Positions 19,377 through 20,454 of a stretch of 64,000 nucleotides of DNA are shown here, piece by piece; positions within the stretch are counted from its first letter, which is position 1; each line of letters opens with the position of its first letter. The stretch is from Acidobacteriota bacterium (GTDB taxonomy: Bacteria; Acidobacteriota; Terriglobia; Acidiferrales; UBA7541). The DNA is taken from contig JABCZD010000006.1 of NCBI GenBank assembly GCA_013289855.1, positions 62,001 through 126,000 on the forward strand. Direction: 5' to 3'. The notes under the pieces were generated by a model. The model saw only the letters and a list, made by a program, of their open reading frames with translations, did no database searches and had not been told where the DNA came from. The translations under genes and the position numbers were made by a program.

Positions 19377-19735
19377 CAGAACACACCCCTCCAATAGCGA
19401 ATTTACTTACAAACACACCCGGGCGGCGTCACGAGCCCTGACGGATTGCAACTCTCGTGGCACCGCTTTATCACAGCTTTTTCGGAACGCGGTATTCAAA
19501 AATTAAGCGAGTCAGATTAACGATTCAGAAACGCCAGATTACCGACCTGTGAATTCCACCCTGTTCGCTTGCGTCAACCTCTCTGGTCTTGGCGACGCCC
19601 CACCGCACCGCGCCCTCGTCCGAACCCTAGACGCAGTATTAGTACCGCCGGTACCTCTACGGTCCATTTTCCCGAATCGGAACACTGCGCATGAGCACCG
19701 CGTGTGCGCGGTCTAACATTTCCCCAAAATATCCC

Positions 19736-19764
19736 TTGACGTCCCGCCACGTATTTGGTATATT
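19736..19764 (+). promoter_or_regulatory. Sigma-70-type promoter
   Basis: TTGACG (19736-19741), a 17-bp spacer, then TATATT (19759-19764), followed by AT-rich aattaa. Transcription would start near 19771, about 240 nt before the next coding start. Confidence 0.7.
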
Positions 19765-19771
19765 AATTAAT

Positions 19772-19943
19772 GGTTAGAGGTGTATCTTGGCCTCGCCGAA
19801 GTTGCGCCGGCCTGGCCGTGGCACGCCACGTTCTCGTAGTTACCACCTGGCTAACACTTTGGCCTCCTAACTCCTTTGCAACGAACACTTGCAGAAGGTT
19901 GTGAAAACAAAGGAACTTTAACTCCCTTTGTTTTCACAACCTT
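19772..19943 (+). ncRNA. Candidate structured RNA or leader
   Basis: Directly downstream of the promoter, gttag-aggtg (19773-19782) can pair with cacct-gg-ctaac (19844-19855). Between them is a cgtgg-cacg-ccacg hairpin. About 40 nt further is a long inverted repeat. It could be a small RNA or a 5' leader of the gene at 20011. No match to a known RNA family is claimed. Confidence 0.3.
19895..19943. repeat. 19-bp perfect inverted repeat
   Basis: aaggttgtgaaaacaaagg (19895-19913) and its exact complement (19925-19943) flank an 11-nt loop. It is AT-richer than its surroundings. There is no T-run after it, so it is not a standard terminator. Confidence 0.8.
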
Positions 19944-20010
19944 TGAAGAAACACAAGGCGGGTAGTCCGATTGCTTTACAGAAACTCCCGCTTTCATTAC
20001 TCTAATTGCT

Positions 20011-20454
20011 ATGTGGAATGTTGAAGATCGCTTCTCGTCCAAATCTATTGAAGGCCTAGCCGCCCTCGGTTTTTCCGTCGGCAGCACTCGCGGCGTGGTC
20101 CGCGTTGAAAAATACGGCTGCGGCGCCGAATTTCGTCAGGGTACCGATGGCGCCTTTCAGATGACCATTCTCCCCACCATCATGCTGAAAGGGCAGTTCA
20201 CCCGCTTGTGGGACGCCGGCTACCAAAAATTTCTCCTCGCCGACGACGGCGTAAAACTCCCCGCCCTCGCCACGCATCTCGAAGGCCTGCGCAGATTCAA
20301 CGAAGAGCTGCGCACCGCTCTCGGCGTTCCAACTTTTTACAACGAAGCCCTCGGCTCCGTCAGCCAAGTCAGCGTCTACGATCGCGTCAAAGGCCGCACC
20401 GGCGACGTCCCGGACAAAACCGTCGGCGCGCACAGCCCCGGCGGCCATCATTAG
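20011..20454 (+). CDS. Conserved-looking hypothetical protein (147 aa)
   Basis: No family recognised. The protein starts MWNVEDRFSSKSIEGLAALG, is soluble in appearance and has a mixed alpha/beta composition with a His/Gly-rich end (GAHSPGGHH). There is no signal peptide, transmembrane helix or catalytic motif. Codon use resembles its neighbours and the long minus-strand frame opposite it looks like a shadow. There is no clear ribosome site before the ATG. It would be transcribed from the promoter at 19736 with a structured leader. It is followed by a palindromic repeat and then a receiver-like gene on the same strand. Confidence 0.65.
   Translation: MWNVEDRFSSKSIEGLAALGFSVGSTRGVVRVEKYGCGAEFRQGTDGAFQMTILPTIMLKGQFTRLWDAGYQKFLLADDGVKLPALATHLEGLRRFNEELRTALGVPTFYNEALGSVSQVSVYDRVKGRTGDVPDKTVGAHSPGGHH

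Follow-up and report, generated by a model that had tools for sequence, protein, structure and literature searches.

A probable noncoding copy of a genus-restricted, promoter-bearing dispersed element in an intergenic region of an Acidobacteriota genome

Analysis of a 64,000-nucleotide stretch of Acidobacteriota DNA (the window) revealed, upstream of a gene that starts at position 20011, an intergenic sequence that is probably a noncoding copy of a dispersed element, one that carries a promoter, has a high copy number, and is restricted to one genus (Table 1). The element appears to be non-autonomous and MITE-like, and its own promoter probably drives transcription as far as a 3' hairpin. Its repeat nature, the edges shared between copies, the promoter pattern, and the lineage specificity of the site in the window were established by sequence comparison. 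An earlier note had described a promoter followed by a foldable noncoding stretch at this place; the features that it named are present, but their significance is to be found beyond the segment that it had marked. No description of the element was found in the open-licence full-text literature.

Table 1. Parts of the sequence at positions 19719 to 20003 of the window
Feature	Position	Strand	Observation
Element copy in the window	19719-19965	+	One copy of the dispersed intergenic element
Left edge and UP-like A-tract TTTCCCCAAAATATCCC	19719-19735	+	Family consensus CCnAAAATnnTnC just 5' of the -35
Sigma70-type promoter TTGACG-17-TATATT	19736-19764	+	-35 at 19736-19741, -10 at 19759-19764
Expected transcript start and degenerate 5' motif GGTTAGAGGTGTATC	19770-19785	+	Family consensus GTAGAGAAsTGCGyC
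Variable interior	19786-19836	+	Mean pairwise identity 0.31 at +20 to +36; similarity between copies not expected
Conserved 3' module: TAGTTACCACCTGGCTAAC, CTAACTCC, GCAACGAACACTTGC, hairpin, right edge	19837-19961	+	Match to model R1, 93.7 bits
3' hairpin, 20 pairs, 11-nt loop	19893-19944	+	z = -7.4; 89% of cells paired in 40 copies
Promoter-like element of gene 20011 (TTTACA ... TTACTCT), outside the element	19975-20003	+	TTTAC[AG] in 30/30 orthologues; -10 part judged by eye

The promoter named in the earlier note is present with the 17-nt spacer described there. Taken alone, it is at chance level (one promoter-like site in 3 kb compared with 1.0 expected from shuffled sequences), and it is credible only because sister copies of the element retain it. 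The inverted repeat, which had been put at 19 bp, was found to have 24-nt arms (19895 to 19918 and 19920 to 19943) that are 92% complementary; its fold of -28.6 kcal/mol is far beyond chance. A 147-amino-acid open reading frame (ORF) begins at 20011, the coding start named in the earlier note; orthologues of it were found in 48 of 61 genomes, the own genome included. Searches of the window revealed no Rfam family at gathering score and no tRNA or tmRNA. An Rfam search of 16 loci with E values of up to 1 returned plant and animal microRNA hairpins and one weak match to Xoo8, all of them below gathering scores. An ATG frame that begins at the expected transcript start (19770 to 19901) extends over at least 44 codons without a stop. 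A conserved short ORF was rejected as a family feature: of 52 noncoding copies, 8, the window copy among them, have an early ATG frame of at least 30 codons.

Both segments of the long-range pairing proposed in the earlier note exist (GTTAGAGGTG at 19773 to 19782 and CACCTGGCTAAC at 19844 to 19855), but the sequence from 19771 to 19862 folds no better than its own shuffles (z = -0.09). In a 178-nt fold, the 5' arm of this pairing pairs with a different TAAC further 3'. The cognate duplex mean in 35 copies was -6.34, compared with -5.82 for re-paired segments (p = 0.031); without the window copy and L041, the p value was 0.12 (33 copies). The pairing therefore finds no family-wide support and was rejected as a family feature. 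The 5' motif and the 3' AGAATGCGCACTT repeat were also considered as pairing partners and rejected, as inspection by eye revealed no consistent co-change.

The own genome (5.35 Mb in 54 contigs, 90% complete) was searched with positions 19736 to 20010, and 73 match places were found, each strand of the palindrome being counted separately. A profile of the 3' part, R1, was built from an alignment of 40 copies (39 and the window copy); RNAalifold placed no pairs on this alignment, and R1 is therefore a sequence-only model. The R1 profile gave 124 matches in the own genome, which correspond to 81 distinct places after both strands of the palindrome were merged. All of these places except C8:30260 were examined, and at least one further copy (L111) was missed by the profile. 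With a home-made codon-usage gene caller, not one of the 80 modules was found to lie wholly within a predicted gene; at L061, the final codons of an ORF run into the 3' module.

Comparison of the copies with each other revealed common edges. In the all-against-all comparison, 35 of the 41 matches that cross the -35 begin no more than 30 bp before it; of the 1185 matches that run through the module, 1176 end 80 to 139 bp after the module start. Whole units of about 200 to 290 nt are 73 to 89% identical at places with unrelated flanks. Because the edges are shared and the flanks are unrelated, the unit is a discrete dispersed block. Terminal inverted repeats were not detected at the edges (edge-to-edge inverted score of 5.2, compared with 5.25 for re-paired edges, in 56 copies). 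Target duplications were likewise not detected (direct-repeat score of 5.48, compared with 5.6 for re-paired edges), with the exact edges not fixed to the base. The element is short, mostly noncoding, and present with sharp edges in many copies at unrelated sites, as is typical of a MITE; it was not filed as a MITE because terminal inverted repeats were tested for and not found.

A typical unit consists of an UP-like A-tract, a promoter, the 5' motif GTAGAGAAsTGCGyC, a variable interior of 28 to 1162 nt, and a 3' module of about 125 bp with the hairpin. Most copies carry a TTGACA-16/18-TAnnnT promoter upstream of the 3' module, with the 5' motif located 6 to 8 nt after the -10. An exact pattern, TTGACA-N24-32-GTAGARAANTRCGYC, matches the genome 21 times, compared with no match for the reversed pattern. 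The 1500 nt upstream of each module were scanned for promoter plus motif with a cut-off of 16, the best of 80 reversed controls reaching 13.7. A score above 16 was found for 56 of the 80 copies, and 55 were kept after L094 (score of 20.0, with a poor -35) had been dropped by hand; the remaining 25 copies, the window copy among them, fall outside this class, being below the cut-off or dropped. The window copy scored 10.6, below the control maximum, and its 5' motif is therefore regarded as degenerate, while its promoter and A-tract are good.

In the 55 copies, the mean pairwise identity was 0.96 for the -35, 0.31 for the 16-nt spacer before the -10, 0.73 for the 5' motif, and 0.31 for the interior, the conservation of the -35 and -10 being partly ascertained because the copies had been chosen by promoter and motif score. 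The A-tract 5' of the -35, which played no part in the choice of copies, is also conserved (A at 0.84 to 0.89, T at 0.82). Constraint on an own promoter, as in a small RNA gene family, is thus present in the family, subject to this ascertainment and to the degenerate motif of the window copy. Other palindromic repeats lie within some of the interiors (GGCACGGCATGCCGTGCC and GTAGCGCAGGGCGCTTG; L040, L067, L084, and L091; L048, L078, and L103). At L234 (G000:C1:297300-300300), the minus strand carries two tandem promoter and 5' motif parts about 360 bp apart, with a terminator-like hairpin and T-run (GTAGAGAACTACGCCTCGGC-AAAA-GCCGGGGCGTTTTGCTTTT) after each of them; no 3' module was seen in the printed stretch of this locus.

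The 3' module occurs in several forms. The arms of type A, to which the window copy belongs, are GGTTGTGAAAACAAAGG/CCTTTGTTTTCACAACC. In type B, AAAGGACTTTAACyCC is flanked by AGAATGAACACTTRC as a direct repeat, and type C has different arms that are still complementary. The common form in relatives consists of two repeats of about 46 nt in tandem. The compensatory changes looked for after the earlier note were found among paralogous copies in the 3' hairpin but not in the long-range pairing, and RNAalifold gave no pairs on the same alignment. In 40 copies, 89.0% of the hairpin cells were paired (86.7% in shuffles) and 23 cells showed a double change (12.8 in shuffles). Pairs with a double change (4, compared with 3.2) and further pair types (7, compared with 6.8) did not exceed shuffles, so that two of five covariation measures were not above the controls.

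The palindrome, the intergenic sites, and five Y1_Tnp matches in the genome would also be consistent with an untranscribed REP- or TIR-like repeat that is moved in trans by a RAYT or TIRYT, the promoters being incidental; so would the repeated part of only about 100 bp in another species. The hairpin, however, is not preceded by GTAG: the consensus bases 5' of it are AACACTTGC-RAA, GTAG occurs only at the 5' end of the RNA, and the 3' module is not a 20- to 40-bp hairpin tagged by GTAG or CGTC. Among the five Y1_Tnp loci, three were examined; the module convincingly flanks none of them, the repeat on both sides of L231 is a different one (GTAGCGGCCGCC), and a 13-mer with two mismatches at L232 looks like chance. 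As this explanation also leaves the promoter constraint unaccounted for, it is regarded as improbable. The Y1_Tnp gene at L231 (G000:C3:343067) has GTAGCGGCCGCCTTCTGAGGCGG on both sides in opposite orientation and looks like a REPtron; the GTAGCGGCCGCCTTCTGAGGCGG repeat is also found in the window at about 20481.

The profile of the module, applied with stricter filters, matched 26 of 61 genomes, all of them in the genus of the window (26 of its 36 genomes). In a second species (G001), 8 of the 18 copies examined (of 34 matches) had a promoter plus motif score above 16. In a third (G033), promoter plus motif were found in 4 of the 20 copies examined (of 38 matches), and the repeated block of most copies is only about 100 bp. 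The locus of gene 20011 was compared between the own genome and 29 of the 33 congeners with an orthologue. The module was found upstream of the orthologue in none of the 29 congeners, and only the own locus has it. The left neighbor gene is kept within 1500 nt clearly in 4 of the 29 (L179, L187, L189, and L192) and weakly in 2. The absence of the unit from the congener loci indicates a lineage-specific insertion or, less likely, loss in 29 lineages.

The earlier note had suggested a small RNA or a cis-regulatory leader. The unit lies on the same strand as gene 20011 and 50 bp 5' of it, which would suit a leader or riboswitch of this gene. That reading was rejected and is considered very improbable, since the unit is absent from all 29 congeners and TTTAC[AG] is retained within the 55 nt that precede the gene in all 30 orthologues, so that gene 20011 has its own conserved promoter element at 19975 to 20003. 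The sister copies argue in the same direction, as 44 of the 80 face a downstream gene on the opposite strand and 36 one on the same strand. No family is typical of their downstream neighbors (the most frequent Pfam family occurs in 4 of 75), and no gene-neighborhood theme was seen. The other half of the suggestion, an unrecognized noncoding transcription unit, is supported by the position of an own promoter, by promoter elements that are kept while the spacer is randomized, and by the absence of an Rfam match in the window.

A further explanation is a multi-copy small RNA family that serves the host, in which the 5' motif and the 3' hairpin would be constant, and either the variable interior would be the targeting part or the RNAs would act as decoys for a regulator; gene duplication would have dispersed the copies as a side effect. 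The covariation of the hairpin is consistent with such a family, as is the retention of the promoter elements and the 5' motif relative to a random spacer. A comparison of flanks between 37 unit loci from other genomes and the 80 own loci gave 11 matching pairs; 6 of these were checked, and 1 (L228/L057) was consistent, in the right flank only. L228 is a counterpart of L057 in another species, with promoter and motif at equal spacing 5' of a homologous gene, which also speaks for such a family. Against this family stand the copies themselves, which are mostly unshared between the species compared (none of 29 for the window locus, 1 of 6 pairs consistent), and the large variation in interior length. 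We therefore regard a host-serving family as rather unlikely and favor the dispersed element.

Four units carry an interior ORF (363, 225, 193, and 158 amino acids) behind the same promoter and leader, and the encoded proteins belong to one otherwise unclassified family with a C-C-C-H motif. This family has 13 matches in the own genome and a match in 26 of 61 genomes, representing 3 of 22 genera. Module and protein family occur together in 19 genomes, the module only in 7, and the protein only in 7. Two of the four proteins were compared with Pfam and NCBIfam and gave no match above the curated cut-offs. A sequence search of solved structures with the C-C-C-H protein revealed one unrelated weak match (E of 0.051), and a search of phage records revealed none; a single-sequence structure model was set aside (mean pLDDT of 47.9). 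The 5' motif was found with at most 5 mismatches in the leader of 14 of the 41 family loci scanned. In at least four loci (L166, L167, L168, and L156), inspection by eye revealed the motif followed by a terminator-like hairpin and T-run, and this arrangement of the sequence suggests that the coding copies may be regulated by attenuation. Nine more distant members of the family lie in the own genome (L132 to L140), several with GTAACCCCAACAGAATCTTACTCTTTCGC-type repeats upstream of the gene. Noncoding interiors as remnants of the coding ORF were considered and rejected: the best blastn match (E of 0.001) lies within another repeat, and descent by internal deletion is unsupported because the interiors have no convincing similarity to the coding ORF.

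According to the model that we propose for the dispersed element, units would insert as discrete blocks into intergenic gaps in the manner of MITEs, and their mobility would act in trans, the noncoding units being non-autonomous relatives of the coding copies. The units would be transcribed into RNAs of about 0.2 kb, whose 3' end the hairpin may protect or define. The unit in the window lies upstream of, and separate from, the promoter of gene 20011. More speculatively, and with little confidence, the family could be a new kind of mobile unit, namely, an RNA gene that is led by a promoter, constant at its ends, and exchangeable in its interior, in which the orphan C-C-C-H protein of some copies would recognize the 3' module and drive or control the spread of the noncoding units without inverted repeats or a known transposase.

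Multi-copy small RNA families such as LhrC of Listeria comprise several small paralogous units, each transcribed from a promoter of its own. The element resembles them in its paralogous small units with own promoters, for which transcription is predicted here, and differs from them in its roughly 80 places, its mostly unrelated interiors, and its positions, which are mostly unshared between the species compared. Acidobacteriota are abundant soil bacteria, and little is known of their noncoding RNA. Passages in published accounts describe the Correia repeat enclosed elements (CREE) of Neisseria as small, high-copy, intergenic, and equipped with sigma70-like promoters, with structured transcripts that RNase III can process (PMC2649163, PMC10969869). 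Like CREE and other promoter-bearing MITEs, the element is small, high-copy, and intergenic with a sigma70-type promoter and a predicted transcript. In contrast to them, it has no detected terminal inverted repeats or target duplications, its 5' RNA motif is constant and its interior variable, and its coding partner is no recognized transposase. Acidobacteria have TIRYTs, as stated in part of a published account (PMC3733652). With the REP and RAYT/TIRYT systems (GTAG/CGTC families; Koribacter TIR repeats), as presented in the same part of that account, the element shares its palindromic, dispersed, and intergenic nature (PMC3733652). Unlike a REP, it is much longer (about 0.1 to 0.25 kb) and promoter bearing, its hairpin has no GTAG tag, and the one repeat-flanked Y1_Tnp locus found here has another repeat.

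About 80 promoter-bearing units in one genome provide many candidate transcription starts in intergenic gaps, and such units will confuse the annotation of promoters and small RNAs. They also constitute a natural set of paralogues in which to study how the promoter of a small element persists despite the turnover of its interior, and which agent mobilizes the element.
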